Positions 51,931 through 60,270 of a DNA stretch of 64,000 bases are shown here, piece after piece. How positions within the stretch are numbered: the first letter of the stretch is position 1; each line of letters begins with the position of its first letter. The notes under the pieces are model-generated. The model saw only the letters and a list, made by a program, of their open reading frames with translations. It was not told the DNA's origin and did no database searches. The DNA is taken from NCBI GenBank assembly GCA_017408885.1, contig JAFQTT010000003.1:62001-126000 (forward strand), written 5' to 3'. This DNA is from Methanocorpusculum sp. (GTDB lineage Archaea > Halobacteriota > Methanomicrobia > Methanomicrobiales > Methanocorpusculaceae). Position numbers and translations under genes: made by a program.

Positions 51931-51950
51931 CTGAAAAATAGAGGTGGTTA
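51920..51950 (+). repeat. Left inverted repeat of the recombinase gene
   Basis: 31-base arm that includes the integrase stop codon. Its last 19 bases (51932-51950) match 52933-52951 in inverse orientation with one difference, and the rest of the arm also aligns with a few changes. Confidence 0.6.
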
Positions 51951-52889
51951 TGATATCCTCATTTCATCTTTTAGAATGCTGAGCTTCTTTTCCGCTTTTC
52001 TGTACTGTTTGAGTATCTGTTTTCTTGTATATCTCCTATATGAAACAGAGAGATATCCTTCATGCCCTGCAATTAATTCTGCAACATCTTTATTTGCGGC
52101 AAGAGTAAAGCGGCTGATGAACCATTTTCGTGTCATATGCCAATGCAGTCCACGATTTTGCCCATTAATCATCATTGAGTATCCAAGATTTTCCGATGCA
52201 TTTCGCATGATGCTTTGAGCACGACTGTATGATATAGTGAAGAGTTTTTCACTGTTGTCCATTCTGTGTTCAAGATATTCGATAAGCGAGTCCTGAGCTT
52301 CGGTTGTCAGGTAGGTTGTTCTAGACTTTTTTGTTTTGGTAATTTCTGCTCTGATATGTATTTCAGCACGTTCTTTATTCCAAATCACATCATCTCTGTT
52401 AAGCTGAAGGGCTTCACCAAGACGCATTCCAGATGCAAGCATTACAAGTAAGAGTGTTTGAATATCATCTGGAAAGTAGTAGTACAGTTCTCTGAATACT
52501 TTTCGTTTTAGTTCGATACCATTTTCAATTGGATCTGGTTTTGGGAGACGTGCATAGATACGCTGTAGTTCTCTTCGATTTATGGTGTGTCCATTATCTA
52601 TCAGCCACATTATTGTACAGCGAAGATAGAGGTTTGCTGTTGTAGGAGCATACTTTTTACTGAGCCATGATGCAAAAGTTCTGAGATCTTTTTTGGAGTC
52701 ATGCCTTCCGATTCTGATTTTTTGTAAGTATCGTTTCGCCAGTTTATTGACATCTGAGTACTCTCCAATCCGGTTAGTGTATGATACAAATTTGAGAAAA
52801 TGACTGACTGCTGTCAGGTAGTTGCTTTTTGTTTTTTCGTTTTGATAGTTGTCGAGAAATTCTGTGATTGGTTCATCTTTGGTTTTCAT
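51948..52889 (-). CDS. Tyrosine recombinase (XerC/D-like integrase)
   Basis: 313 residues. The N-terminal SAM-like core-binding region (about 1-110) is followed by the catalytic domain with R156 in SGMRLGEAL, H251-x-x-R254 in HWHMTRKW, H276 in IAGHEGYLS, and the nucleophile Y284 or Y287. K185-K188 probably supply the catalytic Lys. All classes of catalytic residue are therefore present. The gene is enclosed by inverted repeats 51920-51950 and 52933-52964, which would be natural crossover sites. It is AT-rich compared with core genes. Integrase of an element, an invertase, or a Xer homologue are all possible; the context favours a mobile function. Confidence 0.85.
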   Translation of the reverse strand: MKTKDEPITEFLDNYQNEKTKSNYLTAVSHFLKFVSYTNRIGEYSDVNKLAKRYLQKIRIGRHDSKKDLRTFASWLSKKYAPTTANLYLRCTIMWLIDNGHTINRRELQRIYARLPKPDPIENGIELKRKVFRELYYYFPDDIQTLLLVMLASGMRLGEALQLNRDDVIWNKERAEIHIRAEITKTKKSRTTYLTTEAQDSLIEYLEHRMDNSEKLFTISYSRAQSIMRNASENLGYSMMINGQNRGLHWHMTRKWFISRFTLAANKDVAELIAGHEGYLSVSYRRYTRKQILKQYRKAEKKLSILKDEMRIS

Positions 52890-52932
52890 TAACTGAATTC
52901 ACCAATGGATATTTCAGTAATGCGATAATTTC

Positions 52933-52964
52933 TAACAACCTCTATTTTTCAAAAAACTTCACAA
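52933..52964 (-). repeat. Right inverted repeat of the recombinase gene
   Basis: Inverse copy of the 51920-51950 arm, 44 bases upstream of the integrase start codon. The perfect core is AAAAATAGAGGT. Confidence 0.6.
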
Positions 52965-53116
52965 ATCAACACAGTCCACAATACCCAACACCAATAGCCC
53001 CATGATTCCATAGATAGGGATGAGGTACTGAATAGAAACAGAAAGAAAAGGACGGATAGATAACGCGCGATAAAAGAAATACGGAATATACAAGGAAAAG
53101 AATAGAGTAAATGCTT

Positions 53117-53170
53117 CAAAAAGGAGGTGATACCGGCTATAACGAACAGGTTACCATCCTGTTCAGCCGG
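53117..53170 (+). other. Shine-Dalgarno-like sequence followed by a bulged hairpin
   Basis: CAAAAAGGAGGTGATA at 53117-53132 is a perfect complement of the 16S rRNA tail and has an exact inverted copy at 57885-57900. It is followed by a bulged hairpin: outer stem CCGGCT/AGCCGG, inner stem GAACAGG/CCTGTTC. No start codon lies at Shine-Dalgarno distance. Read on the other strand it is a hairpin followed by an anti-Shine-Dalgarno (CACCTCC). Confidence 0.4.
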
Positions 53171-53228
53171 ATATCCTTCCAACACTGTTACAAGATATAC
53201 TTATGTTCTGTAAGTATATAGGAATTTC

Positions 53229-53237
53229 CCTCATAGC
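53229..53237 (+). repeat. Target site duplication, left
   Basis: CCTCATAGC, repeated exactly at 57750-57758 and directly flanking the transposon's terminal inverted repeat. Confidence 0.85.
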
Positions 53238-53337
53238 GGCTTTGCTCCTTTATTGAAAAACCCACAATAATTTAGTAGCAAGTTCTGTTTGAATTGGGAG
53301 CAGGATTTTTTACATTCTCGCGCAAAAAAGGAGCAAG

Positions 53338-54531
53338 TTATTCAAACTCAACAAACTCAGGTTCTAAACCTTGTGTGGCATTCAGCATTATCAACATGCG
53401 GATATTGTGACAGATGACTTTACAGTATAACTCGTTAGATTGGGTGCGGAACTTACGACTGCGGATAGTCTCTTGACCTGTAGCCTTCATCATATGAAAC
53501 ACAGTCTCAACGTTGGAACGCTTATGATAATGCTTCTTGAACTCTTCGGGATTCTCCAAAGCATAGTAGTACATCTTAGTCCATTCACCACTTCCACGCG
53601 CCGCCGGAGTGGATGACGTTTTGAAAGGAACAAAAAGCCGAATGCCGTAGTCTTTACACAGATTAAAGTTATCGCGTGCTAAATAGCCTTTGTCTGCGGA
53701 AACCTCAGTGACAGTAAATTGTTGGACGACTTCTTCTACCAACGGTTTGAACATCTTGTTATCATGCGTGTGTCCGTCCGTTACATAAGCGTTGGCTATG
53801 ACGTTGGTCTCAACTCCTACAATCGCGTGTAATTTTATCCACTCGTTAAATTTCTCGTACCCGTGTTTTTCTCCAAACCAATCGCTGTATGATGTTGTCC
53901 TAAATCCTGATGCGTCAATAGCCAACCGCGTTTCGGCGGCTATTGCAGGAGTAGCCGATATCTGAATAAGCACCCTAAGAATCTCGGATAGATTCTCATT
54001 ATCCATAAATCTCCAAATAACCGTAGGGGATGGCGCGGTGTCTATGTAACCATTATCATAGAGTTCTTGAATCACTCCTTGCGCACGCCGCCCTGACAAT
54101 CCGCGATAACTAAGAATGATTGCACATGTCAGCAGGTCTCGGTGTGGTATCGGTTTCCGCCCTGCTTTCTTCTCTCTCGGCGGTTCTTCCACTGTCGCCG
54201 CCAGACTTGATACATAGGCATTGAAGTAAGTGTATTCGTTATACTGTCCTTGATTGTAGGCTTTCCAATCCCGCTGATATGTTGGTTTCTTTGGTGTCTG
54301 TTCGCGTCTCGGTTTTGCCCTAATGTGCTTTGGTTTTCTACCCGGTAATACACGGTTTTGAACGGGTTTCTCTATCTGTTTGACCTCTTCTATGGGTTCG
54401 GATTTAATCTCTGTTTCTTTGACCGCAGGAGCGTTCTCATGCCGTTTTCTGCGGAGGATATATGGCTGTGTTGTGGAGCGGGATATTTCTCGCTGACTAA
54501 CTTTGCTTAACCGTAACCGCTCCTTATCCAT
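53338..54531 (-). CDS. DDE transposase A of the 4.5-kb element
   Basis: 397 residues. A basic N-terminal 125 residues with many Lys and Arg probably binds DNA. The catalytic domain has the full acidic triad: D206 in RLAIDASGF, D280 in EVSADKGY and E342 in NVETVFHMMK. Homologous along its length to transposase B (shared blocks AGRKPIP, DxSGF, NVExxF) but without the SWIM finger. The start at 54531 lies 44 bases after the 153-aa gene, and the three leftward genes form an operon. It is possibly active. The IS family could not be assigned with certainty. Confidence 0.85.
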   Translation of the reverse strand: MDKERLRLSKVSQREISRSTTQPYILRRKRHENAPAVKETEIKSEPIEEVKQIEKPVQNRVLPGRKPKHIRAKPRREQTPKKPTYQRDWKAYNQGQYNEYTYFNAYVSSLAATVEEPPREKKAGRKPIPHRDLLTCAIILSYRGLSGRRAQGVIQELYDNGYIDTAPSPTVIWRFMDNENLSEILRVLIQISATPAIAAETRLAIDASGFRTTSYSDWFGEKHGYEKFNEWIKLHAIVGVETNVIANAYVTDGHTHDNKMFKPLVEEVVQQFTVTEVSADKGYLARDNFNLCKDYGIRLFVPFKTSSTPAARGSGEWTKMYYYALENPEEFKKHYHKRSNVETVFHMMKATGQETIRSRKFRTQSNELYCKVICHNIRMLIMLNATQGLEPEFVEFE

Positions 54532-54574
54532 GATAGATAATATGGCGGCTTTGCATAAAAAAGGGTAAGAAGGT

Positions 54575-55036
54575 TTAGGAGTATTCCAACTCCAAAACCT
54601 GTTTGATGTTGTTGAACATCTTTACATCGTCATGACAGAGTAACGTGTAGCAGTTCTTATTGTGGTTTGCTTTGTCCCTACAAACACCTGTGTAAATTAA
54701 CTCATAGGTGAATATCTTCTTCACCTTCATATCACGGCTTCGACCAATATTGATGTCGTTGACATAGAGGTCAAGAAAGACCGATTCTTTACCGCACGCG
54801 GCATATATCGTTTTCAACAAAGAGCCGTTTGTAACCAAACTATTGTCAGACTTTCTTATCCATTGACTGCGTGTGTAGTGTGCAAACTCCTCCACGATTT
54901 CACCATCAGGTCGGATTAAAGTTAGGAAAGCATAGTGGGAACAGGTGAAATCCGAATGGATAAGCCGTGAATCGGTAAATTCGATTAAACGCGGGAGTTT
55001 TACAAACCCATAATTCCCGCGTTTAAACCTCCCCAT
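54575..55036 (-). CDS. 153-residue protein between the two transposases
   Basis: No family recognised. The product starts MGRFKRGNYGFVKLPRLIEF; a predicted beta-rich fold includes the patterns HYAFLTLIRPDGEIVEEFAHYTRSQW and VFLDLYVNDINIGRSRDMKVKKI, and the C-terminus has CCHD-like residues (YTLLCHDDVKMF). It has no Walker or zinc motif. The start shares a base with the stop of transposase B (TAATG), so it is made with it. An accessory factor for transposition or target choice is the natural guess, but nothing in the sequence proves it. Confidence 0.7.
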   Translation of the reverse strand: MGRFKRGNYGFVKLPRLIEFTDSRLIHSDFTCSHYAFLTLIRPDGEIVEEFAHYTRSQWIRKSDNSLVTNGSLLKTIYAACGKESVFLDLYVNDINIGRSRDMKVKKIFTYELIYTGVCRDKANHNKNCYTLLCHDDVKMFNNIKQVLELEYS

Positions 55037-56358
55037 TAGAAGTTCACCTCAATGTCGTCAATGAAGAAGGATTCTGCAAGAACAGTCAGATTGTAGGCTA
55101 AGATTTTGCAGAGAAGTTCGTTCTTCTGAGCAACTAAGGTCTTTGCCATTAACTTTTCACCCATCTTTGCCTTGATTGCTCCAAAGGTGGATTCTACGTT
55201 GTTTCTCTGTTCGTAATGTTCCATGTACTCGCGTGGGTTGTCTAAGAACTTCATGTACATCTGTCTCCAAAGACCACATCCCTTTGCAGAAGAGGTCATG
55301 TTCTTCTTGAAGAGAATGTACGGGGTGACACCTAACTCATCTGCCTTTGCATAGTTGTCTCGGCTTCCGTATGCCGCGTCTGCCATGACTTCAAGAACAT
55401 TGAAGTAACCGTTTGTACCGTCTAAGAGGTTCTTGAAGTTGTTGACATCAGAAGTTCCTTCTCCTTCTGCTTCGGTGATAACCACGTCAGCAACAACGTT
55501 GGTACGGTTGCCTGCGGAGATGTGGCACTTTAAGAAGGTGTGCTTACGGTTTGCCTTGATTTCGTCCTGCTTGCCTTTCTTGCTCTTCGGGACGTATGCT
55601 TTCCCGTGCTTGTTGTCGCACCACTCGCCAAACTGAGTGGTGGCAAAACCTGAGGAATCAATGGAGAAGGAAGTCTCAAGTTCCGCAAGCGGGAGGGCAG
55701 ACAGTCGAACAAGGTGGTGAAGAATCGGGGTGACATCTTCACGCACCATGAATTTGTTAACCGCATTGTAGTTCGGGGCGTATTCAAGCAGGTTCTGCTC
55801 GGATGCGTCTCTGAGAGCGGTGTGTGCTCTGCGGGAAGATTTCTTAGAGTAAACCTTCATCACGGAGCAGAATACAAGTTCCGAGAGCGGGATTGCCTTA
55901 CGTCCTGCCTTTCCTGCTTCTCTTGCAGGGGATTCAACGGTGTCACAAAGCTGTCTGAGGAAGATTTTGACTAACTCCTCCTCATTAACCTGTCCTAAGG
56001 TGTAACCCGTCCAATTTCTCTGAGTGTTCTTCTTCGGGGTTGCTGTGGTGATACTCTCGTTTAAGAACTCCTTGACTGCCATAATGTGCTTGCATTCCCA
56101 TCCTACTCCGTGTACAATGCAGTCCGGGCAGTTGCACGTGTATGCGTCTCCGTTTCTGCTTACGGTGTAGGTGCTGACACCCATTTGAGACTTTACGGCA
56201 AAGGTGTTCTTTGCCACCTTCTTGACTGCCTTCTTTCCCTTGAGAATTTCGTGTGCTCTCTCCATTCTGTTAGCACCTGCGAGGTTCGGGAAGTTTGGGT
56301 TAAGTTCGTATGGTTTAAAGAAATCTGCTGTGTAGTTGGTGGAAGCGGTCTCTGTCAT
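55036..56358 (-). CDS. SWIM-zinc-finger DDE transposase B of the 4.5-kb element
   Basis: 440 residues. The first 100 contain a SWIM zinc finger: C75-x-C77 in YTCNCPDC and C89-x-H91 in WECKH. The catalytic domain carries D234 in SIDSSGF, D327 in EVMADAAYGS and E389 in NVESTFGAIK. It is paralogous to transposase A. The SWIM finger may bind DNA or a partner. First gene of the leftward operon; its promoter lies in the 130-base AT-rich gap shared with the divergent DUF2080 pair. Confidence 0.87.
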   Translation of the reverse strand: MTETASTNYTADFFKPYELNPNFPNLAGANRMERAHEILKGKKAVKKVAKNTFAVKSQMGVSTYTVSRNGDAYTCNCPDCIVHGVGWECKHIMAVKEFLNESITTATPKKNTQRNWTGYTLGQVNEEELVKIFLRQLCDTVESPAREAGKAGRKAIPLSELVFCSVMKVYSKKSSRRAHTALRDASEQNLLEYAPNYNAVNKFMVREDVTPILHHLVRLSALPLAELETSFSIDSSGFATTQFGEWCDNKHGKAYVPKSKKGKQDEIKANRKHTFLKCHISAGNRTNVVADVVITEAEGEGTSDVNNFKNLLDGTNGYFNVLEVMADAAYGSRDNYAKADELGVTPYILFKKNMTSSAKGCGLWRQMYMKFLDNPREYMEHYEQRNNVESTFGAIKAKMGEKLMAKTLVAQKNELLCKILAYNLTVLAESFFIDDIEVNF

Positions 56359-56491
56359 TTTGCTTTCCTCTACTTAATATATTGGTCGTCTGAGTATTTA
56401 ATAATTGTGTTACATAGTAACAGCATTATAACAATTATATAACACAACAGAGATTATTTATGTTATAAAATAGATATATTGTAACGATATA
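56359..56491. promoter_or_regulatory. Divergent promoter region with an operator-like palindrome
   Basis: AT-rich spacer between transposase B (leftward) and the DUF2080 pair (rightward). It contains TGTTACATAGTAACA, a palindrome with 6-bp arms, and several TATA-like stretches. A DUF2080 protein or a transposase could bind it to control both directions. Confidence 0.45.
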
Positions 56492-56659
56492 ATGACTGTA
56501 CCAAAGATGAAAGTTGAGATGGATTCCTACGGAGTAGTAGATAAAGTAGTGAAACCGCTTACAAAGAGTTCCGGCAGGGTGTACGTTCCTGTAAGTTGGA
56601 TTGGAAAAAGAGTTAGAGTGGTCTTATTGGAAGAACCTGACGAGGACGAAGAAGAGTAA
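56492..56659 (+). CDS. DUF2080-type transposon-encoded small protein, copy 1
   Basis: 55-residue protein with an AbrB/SpoVT-like swapped-hairpin pattern: VVKPLTKSSGRVYVPVSWIGKRVRVVLLEEP, ending in an acidic tail (EPDEDEEE). The family (DUF2080, transposase-associated) is known to accompany archaeal transposons. It is paralogous to the next gene, sharing VYVP/VYLP, SW-x-GK-x-VRV and LLEE. The start codon follows an AT-rich promoter. A DNA-binding regulator of the element is the likely role by fold. Confidence 0.78.
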   Translation: MTVPKMKVEMDSYGVVDKVVKPLTKSSGRVYVPVSWIGKRVRVVLLEEPDEDEEE

Positions 56660-56808
56660 TGACTGAATTTAGCATTACTACTATAGGGTACGCACTTGAG
56701 GACAAAGTAGCAAAGAAAGTCGCCGAAAAAGCAACGCACGTCTATCTGCCTGCATCATGGGAAGGAAAAAAGGTAAGAGTGATTCTCTTAGAAGAATTAG
56801 ACGAGTAA
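56659..56808 (+). CDS. DUF2080-type transposon-encoded small protein, copy 2
   Basis: 49-residue paralogue of the upstream protein: VAEKATHVYLPASWEGKKVRVILLEELDE. Its start overlaps the previous stop (TAATG). The basic N-terminal half differs from copy 1, so the two may have distinct DNA targets or form a heterodimer. It converges on the tail-fibre-like gene, with only 22 bases between the stops. Confidence 0.72.
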   Translation: MTEFSITTIGYALEDKVAKKVAEKATHVYLPASWEGKKVRVILLEELDE

Positions 56809-56830
56809 CATTTCTGATATTTATATGAAA

Positions 56831-57367
56831 TTATGATTCGTATGTTAGTGTATAAGACCCAAGTCCAATATACATATCGTATTCATAACTTCCCGATTCA
56901 GTTCTATTTGCATGGAAAGTAAGTACCATAGTATCTTCTGGAATAGTTAATATTCCAGACGAACCTGTTACGCCTGTTTGAAAGACTAATGTATCCATTT
57001 TTCCTGTGGAATTGATTGAATAAATCGTAAAGTTATGATATTGGTCTGCTGAACAGCTCCAATATAATGTGCCATAAATTGTAGTATTTGTTGCCATCCC
57101 ATTGAAAAATGTAAAACTATTTGATGTGTATGTACCATATACTTTAACAGAAGATGTCGTGCGAGAATTGCCATCATCCACAATATGTACTTTTTTCCCC
57201 ATTTGTGCAGGAACTATACTTTCCAAAGATACAATACGTGTGTTAAAATTATTCATAGTAGTATCAATGGTTTCAAAATTCCCGTTGATTAGTGTTCCCC
57301 ATCCGTTTTCCCCTACGGTTGGCATATACAGTTGGTAGTTAGCAGTATACGTCCCCATACTCACCAC
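56831..57367 (-). CDS. Phage-tail-fibre-like protein carried by the transposon
   Basis: 178 residues. The N-terminus GTYTANYQLYMPTVGENGWGTLINGNFETIDTTMNNF has the pattern NYxLYxPxxGxNGWGxLxNxNFxTID that opens tail-fibre and receptor-binding proteins of phages. A short coiled-coil-like segment (MNNFNTRIVSLESIVPAQMG) follows, and the rest is beta-rich and Ser/Thr/Tyr-heavy, like a tail-fibre tip. No signal peptide. It is cargo of a transposon, not part of a phage module, which is odd. A C10 tract (57425-57434) lies upstream in its promoter region. Confidence 0.6.
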   Translation of the reverse strand: MVSMGTYTANYQLYMPTVGENGWGTLINGNFETIDTTMNNFNTRIVSLESIVPAQMGKKVHIVDDGNSRTTSSVKVYGTYTSNSFTFFNGMATNTTIYGTLYWSCSADQYHNFTIYSINSTGKMDTLVFQTGVTGSSGILTIPEDTMVLTFHANRTESGSYEYDMYIGLGSYTLTYES

Positions 57368-57424
57368 CGTAAACCGTGTTAAAAGAATTATTTTTCGACT
57401 CTAAGCTAAATTTAAGCGATTTTG

Positions 57425-57434
57425 CCCCCCCCCC
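57425..57434 (-). repeat. C10 homopolymer (G10 on the coding strand) upstream of the tail-fibre-like gene
   Basis: Ten C residues in otherwise AT-rich DNA, about 58-67 bases before the tail-fibre-like start. Such tracts slip during replication and could alter promoter spacing. Confidence 0.6.
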
Positions 57435-57485
57435 ACTTTGGAGATGGGCAAGGACTTTACCGTTCATACTTATTTATTTCTCGCT

Positions 57486-57749
57486 GTGAATATTTAAGCG
57501 GTTGCGTGTTAGTCGCGCGTTTTGTTAAAAACGAGTAAGATTTTGATTAAACGAGCAGTGCTGAAATAACGAGCAACACCTTCATTGTATAACTATTTGC
57601 ACCGTGAATATTTAACCGATAGCCCGCGAGTCGCGTTTTATTTGGCGGCGATTTAGGAGCAGGTTTGTAATGCTCGGTGTTGAAAAAGGAGCAGAAGTGG
57701 TTTTCACGAGGTTGATTTAGGAGCAAGATTTTGAAAAAGGAGCAAAGCC
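57486..57749. repeat. Right-end array of transposase sites
   Basis: Seven AACGAG or AGGAGCA-type motifs (near 57530, 57549, 57568, 57655, 57686, 57720 and 57739) and a diverged direct repeat that starts GTGAATATTTAA at 57486 and 57604, containing GTCGCG. Motif spacing is 18-85 bases, the kind of array seen at the ends of large transposons. Confidence 0.55.
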
Positions 57750-57758
57750 CCTCATAGC
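57750..57758 (+). repeat. Target site duplication, right
   Basis: CCTCATAGC, identical to 53229-53237. Confidence 0.85.
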
Positions 57759-58255
57759 AGAGGTGATAAAATAATAGAGGTATGACCCCCTATTATTTCT
57801 TTTTGAGCAGTTGATACAACAATCGAATCTCTTTAGATAAGAGATATAGAATTGTAACCACTGCCGACAGTGTCAGAAGGATATTATCACCTCCTTTTTG
57901 TTAGTCCAGTTGGTGAGACTGGCCATCTTATGATTCAATCTTCAAGTATATATACCCCTAACCGCGCAGTCGCCAGTCCTTCGGACTTGCTCATGGCTTG
58001 AGCCTTCAGTTCTCGCCTTTCACAGATTTGTTCTATCCATAATGAAAGTACTATCCATATCCGGTTAGGATATGACAAAGAATCTTAAACCTAAAAGGAA
58101 AATAGATTATTACCGGTGTCTTGATATCTGATGCCAATGTTTTAAAATCCAATAGGAGATAAATCTCCTATGATGTATCTGCTGTTTGCGGCAGCAGACC
58201 ACAATTAGGGTTCTCATGCCCAGAATTGATTGACGTATCTATGAATGAATTTGCA
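57759..58255. other. Island end: hairpin terminator, small-peptide candidate and dispersed repeat copy
   Basis: Just outside the transposon a hairpin (AATAATAG ... CTATTATT, T-rich on the minus strand) lies at about 57770-57800. A candidate hydrophobic peptide ORF (57793-57882) and an inverted copy of a Shine-Dalgarno-like sequence (57885-57900) follow. At about 57961-58020 lies one copy, in reverse orientation, of the dispersed repeat with core GCTCAAGCCATGAGC. The remaining 230 bases to 58255 show nothing recognisable. Confidence 0.5.
57793..57882 (-). CDS. Candidate 29-residue single-helix peptide without canonical start
   Basis: Behind a perfect Shine-Dalgarno (AAGGAGGTGAT, at about 57888-57898 on this strand), an open frame starts at ATC (7-base spacing) and encodes ILLTLSAVVTILYLLSKEIR then a Lys-rich end (LLKKK). 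One membrane helix plus a basic tail is the look of small holin-like or type I toxin peptides. A hairpin-T-run terminator follows. The missing ATG, GTG or TTG is a serious weakness: ATC starts are rare. Treat as a guess. Confidence 0.2.
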   Translation of the reverse strand: MLLTLSAVVTILYLLSKEIRLLYQLLKKK

Positions 58256-58771
58256 TCAGATATTGTCCAGCCGGAACAGAATTTTTCCAAAGGGTTCTGT
58301 TACCCCCATCCCTTCAAAACAGTTTTTGACTGCTCTTTCAAGAGGGTAATCACCTGATTCAGTGATAGTTCTAAATGACGGGACATTGTATTTCTTTGTC
58401 TGTTCTTCATCTTCGCATGAAACTGACAGCGAGACAAATACATCACTTTCACGCGGGATAACAATGATATACTGTTTTCCTAAAATGAGTGTCCCGCCGG
58501 CAACGGACGCATGAAACTTTTTCCCGTCCAGAACTTCATTTACGGATATCACAACTCTGCTTCCTGTGATAGTAAAGACAGAACTAACCTCTTCTTTTCC
58601 ATCAACAGTATATCCCAAGTCGCGGATTTCGTCATCAACATCGATGACGACCTCCGAGACCGAAAGAGACACAACAGTGCTCTGACCGGATGCCGCAGCT
58701 AACTGTGGCACGGCAAGAAGGAAGATAAGGCAGAGAAGTATGCCAATCCGAATCAGAGTTTTTTGTGTCAT
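58256..58771 (-). CDS. Exported protein with Sec signal peptide, unknown function
   Basis: 171 residues. The N-terminus (RIGILLCLIFLLAVPQLAAASG) is a Sec signal with AAA-S cleavage near residue 27. The mature part alternates short beta strands (VVSLSVSEVVIDVDDE, VFTITGSRVVIS, LILGKQYIIVIPRES) and contains one pair of Cys in the CEDEEQTKKY region and near the C-terminus. No family recognised. It is the last gene of the leftward surface operon; it follows the 58785 gene by 13 bases. Confidence 0.7.
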   Translation of the reverse strand: MTQKTLIRIGILLCLIFLLAVPQLAAASGQSTVVSLSVSEVVIDVDDEIRDLGYTVDGKEEVSSVFTITGSRVVISVNEVLDGKKFHASVAGGTLILGKQYIIVIPRESDVFVSLSVSCEDEEQTKKYNVPSFRTITESGDYPLERAVKNCFEGMGVTEPFGKILFRLDNI

Positions 58772-58784
58772 GGATTATAATTAA

Positions 58785-59357
58785 TTACCCATTATTTTGT
58801 TGAACATCATCAACCCTAATCATGAATGTCAGACTATCCTGATGAACTCCTGATTTAGTGGCATTGTCGATGAAGTTCTGAGTGGTTTCAAACCTAAGAG
58901 TTACATAGCCACCGATTTTTTTAAATCCAGTATAAATATTTTTTAAAACAGGATGTTCATCTCCTGCATTAACTGTTAAAACATCCGTATTGTTAGTAAC
59001 CTGAGTGGTAGTAGTAGATTCGGTCTTGTTAATGTAGTAACGAATCCAACTGCCGCTGTTATCCAGATAGTAGATATTATCATTAGTTATATAGTTACTT
59101 GATGTGAGGTTAACTACAAGCTTCTTACCCTGATTAATAAGAACATTGGTTGCATTTACCTGTCCTTCTGAGAAAAATTTAGAATTTGATTCTTCAAAAA
59201 TCACATCAGCAGGAATCTCAACAATGTAATTATCTGAAACTGAATAATTGACAGTCATCTGACCATCTGTTTTGAAACCAATACCACTCACAGCTCCCGC
59301 CATAGCAAACACCACAGCAAGAGTGATGAGAATCATCAATACATTTTTCATTTTCAT
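58785..59357 (-). CDS. Exported protein with an IPxxLxI-type C-terminal domain like that of the adhesin
   Basis: 190 residues. Sec signal: MKMKNVLMILITLAVVFAMAGAVSG, cleavage near residue 23. The start at 59357 is chosen because AAGGAG lies a dozen bases before it. The mature part contains the segment YIVEIPADVIFEESNSKFFSEGQVN, which resembles CIVIIPETLTINENGKGSAG in the C-terminal region of the adhesin at 60271 (shared pattern I-I/V-x-IP-x-x-hydrophobic-x-hydrophobic, then polar residues and Gly). Seven Asn-X-Ser/Thr sites and repeated Thr suggest N-glycosylation in archaea. No enzyme motif. Confidence 0.68.
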   Translation of the reverse strand: MKMKNVLMILITLAVVFAMAGAVSGIGFKTDGQMTVNYSVSDNYIVEIPADVIFEESNSKFFSEGQVNATNVLINQGKKLVVNLTSSNYITNDNIYYLDNSGSWIRYYINKTESTTTTQVTNNTDVLTVNAGDEHPVLKNIYTGFKKIGGYVTLRFETTQNFIDNATKSGVHQDSLTFMIRVDDVQQNNG

Positions 59358-59397
59358 TTTGTGTTTCTCCTTTCTCTTTTCACACATTTTTCTACAC

Positions 59398-60009
59398 TCA
59401 TCTTACAATGAGTGTTGTTCTCACATCTGCACTGTTGGAAGTAGGGGAATATGTAACCTGACTTTTATTTCCATAATCTACTTTTTCGATATCTTCGATA
59501 TCTTCACTAAACACAATGCGGTACGGCTGTACATGAATTAAAGCATCATACTCAGTATCTTTGGAGAGAGTACTATTGAGTTTGAGCGGCTGCGGCACAT
59601 AATTTCCAGGCAAAGTTAAGTTCGATACGTAGATTGATTCATACGCACCATTCTTTGGAATGAACAATTCAAACCTAAGTGCATACTTGCCTTTGTTAGC
59701 ATCCGGGTTATAGAATGGAACATACACCTTATCGGCAGAAATTGTAATCGTGCCCCATCCTGGAATTGCCACGCCCGGTTGAGACGTCTGATTAATCACA
59801 GGGGCAATATACTCTCCGGATTCCACATCCACATTCAGCCCTCCCCATCCTTGAGTACTTCCTCCGATGCCAAGCCAGTCAACAAAGGCATCAGCAAACT
59901 CGAACTTATCCGAGACCAGACCAAGAATGATAGTGCCGCCAAATGCCAAAGACAGAACCAAAGCTACTGCCAGAATGATTGTCAGAACTTGTCCTTTTGA
60001 AATTGCCAT
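59398..60009 (-). CDS. Membrane-anchored surface protein of unknown function
   Basis: 203 residues. The start at 60009 gives MAISKGQVLTIILAVALVLSLAFGGTIILG, a short basic lead and a 24-residue hydrophobic stretch without a clear cleavage site: either an uncleaved anchor or a prepilin-like signal. The exterior part is beta-rich (ITISADKVYVPFYN, KYALRFELFIPK) with several Asn-X-Ser/Thr sites. It sits between the adhesin and the 58785 protein in one leftward operon. A pilin or adhesin partner role is inference. Confidence 0.62.
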   Translation of the reverse strand: MAISKGQVLTIILAVALVLSLAFGGTIILGLVSDKFEFADAFVDWLGIGGSTQGWGGLNVDVESGEYIAPVINQTSQPGVAIPGWGTITISADKVYVPFYNPDANKGKYALRFELFIPKNGAYESIYVSNLTLPGNYVPQPLKLNSTLSKDTEYDALIHVQPYRIVFSEDIEDIEKVDYGNKSQVTYSPTSNSADVRTTLIVR

Positions 60010-60270
60010 TTTTAATTCCCAAATTTTTACGCTGTATGAATACAGCGTGATTTGTTCTCTGTGCTGTTCTTCTGCAGTGCTGAAGAAATCAGCACATAAT
60101 TTTCGGGAACAGAGCTGTTCTGCACCCATGTTAATCAGAATTCGATACGGGAAGTGAGTCCGGCTAACCCGGTCTCACTTCCGGGTAAAGATGAGACGCA
60201 GAATATACTTCTGCGGATTTTATTTTGTCATTCCATTTTACTATCATGATATTCTCCAATATTTCAACAA
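60010..60270. other. Intergenic segment with two strong hairpins
   Basis: The hairpin ACGCTGTAT/ATACAGCGT lies at about 60030-60049. A larger one with arms GGGAAGTGAG and CTCACTTCC, GGCC-rich inside, lies near 60150-60186. They sit between the adhesin stop and the next gene and could slow or terminate transcription, or process the transcript. No ORF. Confidence 0.5.

Follow-up and report, generated by a model that had tools for sequence, protein, structure and literature searches.

We describe a complete transposon with two homologous DDE transposases, A and C, at positions 53238-57749 (4,512 bp) of a 64,000-nt stretch of the gut methanogen Methanocorpusculum (GenBank GCA_017408885.1, contig JAFQTT010000003.1, positions 62,001 to 126,000; hereafter the window). 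Among the genomes searched, the pair is limited to this element and a near-identical counterpart, which occupies the same site in a second species, and each of the nine complete relatives that we delimited carries a single transposase of this kind. Because ends, 9-bp duplication and enzyme family agree, the element is classified from its sequence as IS903 type (IS5 family), and not as a simple insertion sequence (IS). We favour, at a probability of about 0.58, an origin in which two elements merged and A now works on the present ends. Together with its relatives it forms a group of archaeal cargo transposons that is seemingly little described.

The element is bounded by terminal inverted repeats (TIRs) identical over 14 bp, GGCTTTGCTCCTTT at 53238-53251 (plus strand) and its partner at 57736-57749 (minus), directly bordered by the target-site duplication (TSD) CCTCATAGC at 53229-53237 and 57750-57758. 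The exact 14-mer occurs in the element at two places only, its two ends, and with up to one mismatch it is found in its own genome at those two positions only; the element DNA is single-copy in that genome. Across the genus, a one-mismatch match alone is no evidence of an element, because a reversed control pattern is nearly as frequent (10 of 25 genomes, against 14 of 25 for the 14-mer). The flanks are the two halves of a dispersed host repeat (53117-53237 and 57759-57900, outer limits approximate), of which flank searches found many partial copies in the 25 genus genomes. Eleven repeat stretches were retrieved, and ten (L075-L084; L085 was not used) were picked as likely uninterrupted: two from the window's genome (G000), four from G021, two from G020 and one each from G015 and G023. 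All ten, from these five genomes, align across the joined junction without the element at 71-83% identity. None of them is the orthologous site, which in G021 is occupied; they are other copies of the repeat, and since they align through the junction, the boundary and the duplication have support beyond the window itself. A first-pass annotation, made from the letters of the window, had proposed a complete transposon with base-exact boundaries and a 9-bp target duplication. Both proposals are borne out by the inverted ends, by CCTCATAGC on both sides and by the comparison with element-free repeat copies, which are continuous over the junction.

Three genes form a single minus-strand row in the order C-B-A: C (440 aa, 55036-56358), B (153 aa, 54575-55036) and A (397 aa, 53338-54531), which adjoins the left end. 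Two DUF2080 genes, D (55 aa, 56492-56659) and E (49 aa, 56659-56808), are divergent on the plus strand, and the cargo gene F (56831-57367, minus, up to 178 aa, with a start likely nearer 57358 by comparison with the counterpart) adjoins the right end. Both transposases match DDE_Tnp_1 (1.8e-22 and 7.7e-16). Their triads, D206-D280-E342 in A and D234-D327-E389 in C, do not vary among these two proteins and eight relatives, and neither does the Y-(2)-R-(3)-E-(6)-K arrangement; Y-2-R-3-E-6-K is the signature of the IS5 family, IS903 type. Aligned over 343 columns, A and C are 34% identical, and the first-pass description of two homologous full-triad DDE proteins thus stands. An N-terminal CxC..CxH motif of SWIM zinc-finger type (residues 75-91 of C, 56086-56136, minus) is present in eight of the ten aligned proteins (A, C and the eight relatives) and absent from A and from the protein of locus L161; L173b, left out of this alignment, also has it. 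The SWIM model PF04434 is matched above cut-off by L170, L172, L173a and L174 but not by C (11 bits vs 19.6, E 0.32), L175 or L176, and was not reported for L165. SWIM-type fingers are also N-terminal in unrelated archaeal transposases (L010, L105), which by eye we take to be IS6-like.

A simple IS is small, with one transposase and no passenger genes; the present element has 4,512 bp, two transposases and further genes. IS903 itself has a single gene in about 1.1 kb, with a DDE_Tnp_1 domain and the YREK signature, as in A and C. Its inverted repeats start with GGCTTTG and it makes a 9-bp duplication, as here; the relevant passage of PMC10569121 gives the ends of IS903B as GGCTTTGTTGAATAAATC with a 9-bp repeat, unlike the IS5-type ISKpn26, for which it gives TTAA. 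The present element differs from IS903 in its length of 4.5 kb, its two transposases, its DUF2080 genes, its cargo and its repeated end motifs.

The counterpart lies at the same site, with the same duplication, in Methanocorpusculum sp. RGIG1678 from goat cecum (L034, G021). The copies differ by 8 bases in A, 1 in B and 6 in C, and synonymous divergence (dS) is 0.019 for A and 0.018 for C against 0.38 for the neighbouring integrase. The main pieces of a 12.5-kb core stretch are 79, 83 and 88% identical between the genomes, and identity in 300-bp steps is 98.7-100% over 52865-56464, then 93% over D; the right flank is similar as well (95% over 57759-60200, dS 0.04 in a 171-aa open reading frame (ORF)). 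Because element and flank are far more alike than the surrounding genome, there appears to have been a recent exchange between the species, of the element itself or, more likely, of a longer segment that includes it, or else this DNA was kept more similar in some other way. Nonsynonymous changes are 3 of 8 in A (P 0.015) and 1 of 6 in C (P 0.002), so that both transposases look to be under purifying selection. The cargo differs: window 56811-57581 has no high-identity alignment to L034:3574-4548, where a 249-aa protein with an N-terminus similar to F is encoded, and only 57234-57526 is recognisable, at 72%. D is 88.7% identical between the copies and E 99.3%; 19 of the 168 bases of D differ (14 synonymous and 4 nonsynonymous codons) between neighbours about 99% identical, perhaps a local exchange tract.

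In the class, a profile of C, A and the G012 protein with the L034 copies (A1) matched 4 of 232 genomes at 1e-30, with two transposases in G000, two in G021 (the same site), one in G012 and one, at a contig end, in G023. In the phylum, 35 of 392 genomes had matches at 1e-25, with at most four candidates scored per genome and 49 match rows listed. Besides G000, two transposases within 10 kb are found among the matches listed in G199 only, in two separate adjacent elements; in G230 (C49) two adjoining pieces look like one broken gene. Co-occurrence of the two DDE proteins with the 153-aa ORF, a check proposed in the first-pass annotation, is seen in one other copy, at the same site; the relatives have a single transposase. 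At the limits used, C had no relatives on phage, plasmid or viral records, and the A1 profile none in viral contigs. A literature search of open-licence papers (ISfinder was outside its scope) turned up no described element with this gene set, in agreement with the first-pass annotation.

From the 49 match rows we took 15 relative transposase loci in 13 genomes, mostly the stronger ones, leaving out G208, G234, a second G199 contig and weaker rows. Nine loci, in eight genomes of the window's phylum, are complete elements of 4.2-6.7 kb with exact 9-bp duplications: L161 (4,678 bp), L170 (4,163 bp), L173b (5,126 bp), L173a (5,459 bp), L175 (5,905 bp), L181 (6,653 bp), L182 (5,497 bp), L183 (5,383 bp) and L185 (5,456 bp). 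Each of the nine encodes a single such transposase, which in L173b is broken into two frames, and eight have the SWIM-type finger motif. TIR and TSD were not found at the other six (G230, G494, G436, G212, G218 and the second G272 locus), some of which may be explained by contig ends. In shuffle controls the laxer TIR/TSD finder gave 3 hits in 280 and the stricter one, which asks for 13 of 14 bases and an exact 9-mer, none in 1,000; L173a, with 12 of 14 bases by our count, passes the laxer finder only.

The eight SWIM elements (L170, L173a, L173b, L175, L181, L182, L183 and L185) share with the window element a homologous transposase, GGCTTTG or CGCTTTG ends, the 9-bp duplication and passenger genes. 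They differ in having one transposase, in that no 153-aa ORF was seen in them, and in a cargo of restriction-modification, serpin or protease genes. Restriction-modification-type genes are present in four of the nine complete elements, as an N6 methylase with HsdR_N plus a separate specificity protein (L182 and L183) or as single-chain methylase proteins with specificity-like parts (L173a and L181). L173a also carries an EVE domain, matched below cut-off in L183, L175 a serpin, and L170 a ClpP-like SDH-type protease. Because four of nine carry restriction-modification-type genes, elements of this group may spread defence genes between archaea. The same-genus element L161 (G012) shares with the window element a DDE protein lacking the SWIM-type motif, a divergent DUF2080 gene, a length of 4.7 kb, similar ends (GGCGTTGCACCTTT) and a 9-bp TSD; it differs in its one transposase and in its cargo, mostly without assignment (a GIY-YIG match is below cut-off). 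L157 (G010) is a 1,587-bp element with matching ends and ACCGGCGAG on both sides, without a transposase of this kind. Two contig ends in G020 (L158 and L159; contigs C7 and C15) bear near-identical 360-bp element ends that have the outermost 20 bp in common with the right end of the window element. A survey of mobile elements in Thaumarchaeota, published in 2019, states in the relevant passages that composite DNA transposons carrying diverse passenger genes, though known from bacteria, had gone undetected in archaea (PMC6563490); the nine complete elements, the window element and its counterpart now place passenger genes inside base-exact ends in archaea.

Copies of an end motif, the 7-base inner part of the inverted repeat, cluster near the ends. 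Allowing up to one mismatch and excluding the repeat itself, we counted 45 in 1,920 bp of terminal 120-bp stretches versus 122 in 34,226 bp of interior (23.4 vs 3.56 per kb) in eight elements, namely the window element, its copy, L161, L170, L173a, L173b, L175 and L157; L181, L182, L183 and L185 were left out. Among the four SWIM elements in this set, clusters like those of the window element are seen in L173a, L173b and L175 and weakly in L170, which has few copies and fits poorly. Spacing is often about 20 bp (22, 42, 62 and 82 in L175; 38, 58 and 78 in L157). In the window element the left end (53243-53335) has TGCTCC motifs at 53243 (plus), 53297 (minus) and 53330 (minus), with end-motif sites at 38, 60 and 93, and the right end (57656-57749, minus) has TGCTCC at 57656, 57688, 57720 and 57739, with sites 32 bp apart. 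The motifs are putative binding sites, and by analogy the element ends resemble the multi-site ends of larger transposons more than those of a simple IS.

The merger that we favour would run as follows. A DDE unit transposon of IS903 type with passenger genes would have gained two transposases; its ends would be recognised through the GGCTTTG inverted repeat and nearby copies of its inner motif, and staggered insertion over 9 bp would yield the duplication, which is seen in the sequence, while the enzymology is that expected from the family. A most likely acts on the present ends, because its nearest relatives are same-genus single transposases, one of which sits in an element whose ends closely resemble the present ones (TTGCACC for TTGCTCC). 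C, together with the coupled B and the divergent DUF2080 genes, is most likely the core of another, related element, which would have joined the first through side-by-side or nested insertion and would later have lost the ends it came with. F is exchangeable cargo.

We favour this course because A and C lie apart in trees, because the family stacks elements and because there are possible relic inner ends. In two trees A groups with L006 of G023 (98/95 and 96/92) and next with the G012 protein (95/88 and 90/83), with C apart, and a single A+C clade has a p-AU of 0.044; on these trees A and C are probably not close sisters. Stacking has three precedents in the family. At L173 (2554-13147) two different family elements stand side by side with TAACTCTTA three times. 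At L181 (1054-7801) an 86-bp mini-element is directly followed by an element whose ends are of the other type, and CCGGATCGA is present in three copies. Both arrangements suggest insertion exactly beside a resident element at the same target. In L175 (886-6790) one left end is followed by three right-end copies, which lie at 1880, 4447 and 5905 of the element; the two inner copies show slight changes in their final bases, and the arrangement looks like a stack of cargo modules. In the window element a stray GGCTTTGC between A and B (54547-54554, plus), 28 bp from the end of B, is the sole GGCTTTGC in the window besides the two ends and hints at a possible left-end relic of a C-B unit. A possible inner, diverged right-end segment (57486-57580, minus; TGCTCG at 57552 and 57570; a 78% repeat of 57604-57635) fits the merger as well; its two TGCTCG motifs are absent from the G021 counterpart. 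C-only elements with ends like GGCTTTGCATAAAAAAGGG, if found, would support a relic inner end at 54547.

Several observations weigh against the merger or its IS903-type frame. Sisterhood of A and C is rejected weakly, on long branches of which the tool itself warns, and C groups weakly (80/67) with a same-genus clade. The stray GGCTTTGC can also be matched by chance, in that 31 of 300 shuffles of the element interior contain one, and the nine bases preceding it agree by eye with the outer duplication at 4 of 9. An inner right end and an inner target duplication were looked for in the element and neither was found. The apparent purifying selection on both transposases argues against C as a dead passenger. 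The end motifs of the window element are less regularly spaced than those of L175 or L157. Finally, C falls below the NCBIfam IS5_2 cut-off (103.8 vs 140 bits), which A passes narrowly (141.1 bits). The first-pass annotation had named one IS inside another as a case that would undo it. Such an insertion is possible but unproven: the stray GGCTTTGC could be its relic inner end, but no inner right end or inner duplication, as a completed nesting would show, is seen. A compound transposon, two complete IS flanking cargo, is rejected: the element has a single end of each kind, A and C are neighbours on one side of it, and its DNA has no second copy in the genome.

If A and C instead worked together, perhaps with B, in one transpososome, for example with one enzyme per end or with cutting and joining divided between them, their place in the same gene row, their intact triads, the apparent purifying selection on both in two species and the different motif spacing of the left and right ends would be accounted for. 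We nevertheless consider this unlikely, given that all nine complete relatives manage with a single transposase, that the 14 bp of the inverted repeats are the same at both ends and that the pair is known from a single insertion site. Unlikely too is a division of labour in which one transposase moves the element and the other has turned into a regulator, a repressor that binds the ends, or a selector of targets: the SWIM-type motif in C but not in A, and the conservation of both, would suit it, but a pure regulator has no need of the complete triad and YREK that each has kept. The tandem arrangement of A and C on the same strand and the weak grouping of C with the same-genus clade holding A recall an old tandem duplication inside a single element lineage, after which the copies diverged with B lying between them; this we hold to be improbable, as A is nearer to the single transposases of other species (L006 and G012) than to C and lacks the SWIM-type motif of C. 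With a two-transposase member at hand, cooperation versus merger is directly testable.

Tn7 is a multi-protein transposition system with several binding sites per end, and Tn7-like transposons have TnsA/TnsB/TnsC-type proteins and a target selector. The first-pass annotation had been reminded of such heteromeric machines. We reject a Tn7-like machine and found no such kinship: both transposases are of DDE_Tnp_1/IS5 type, and there is no TnsA-, TnsC- or target-selector-type protein among the family matches. A broader proposal, that methanogens and their kin harbour a family of DDE cargo transposons (SWIM-finger IS903-type transposases, multi-site ends, often restriction-modification cargo, members that join or stack), none described in the open-licence literature, of which the window element would be the first with two transposases working as a heteromeric machine, is unlikely to hold as a whole.

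The remaining genes bear out the gene content first proposed. The C stop codon overlaps the B start as TAATG, confirming that the 153-aa ORF is coupled. For B, protein-family searches gave no family above cut-off, the best PDB match had an E value of only 0.16, and the structural model has a pLDDT of 49.5. B is known from this element and its counterpart only; a search of 344 genomes found it in one, its own (G021 was not among the matches, its B copy being seen in L034), and B was not found in viral contigs. D (36.1 bits) and E (25.2 bits) both pass the DUF2080 cut-off (NF033496, 22 bits), as expected of two DUF2080 proteins. The family is present in 52 of 199 genomes of the order, and neighbours at 30 DUF2080 loci among the matches listed include transposases of several unrelated kinds, by eye presumably IS481-, IS66- and IS6-like. 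The model of D/E has a pLDDT of 58.5; an AbrB-like fold is our guess, and the DUF2080 proteins probably act as small partners, accessory or regulatory. The relevant passage of PMC10440598 mentions DUF2080: there it is an antitoxin, validated together with a nuclease toxin. F confirms that the element carries cargo. It resembles the start of a phage tail fibre by eye only, with no PHROGs match up to 0.1; its variant in the counterpart has PHROGs matches including tail and head proteins, mostly over a coiled-coil-like stretch.

Minor observations concern the surroundings. The host repeat encodes a conserved, tiny hydrophobic reading frame (57793-57885, minus) ending in ..SKEIRLLYQLLKKK in the window, seen in 8 of 11 copies inspected (window and L076-L084 among them), with a Pfam match to DUF1378 at 0.018, below cut-off; by analogy the frame recalls the small membrane peptides of type I systems. 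The repeat also has facing GGAGGTGATA sites and a strong predicted hairpin (a figure without shuffle control). A tyrosine integrase (51948-52889) adjoins the host repeat, and the similarity of G021 to the window stops near its 3' end (51965); the integrase block may have moved or been rearranged.

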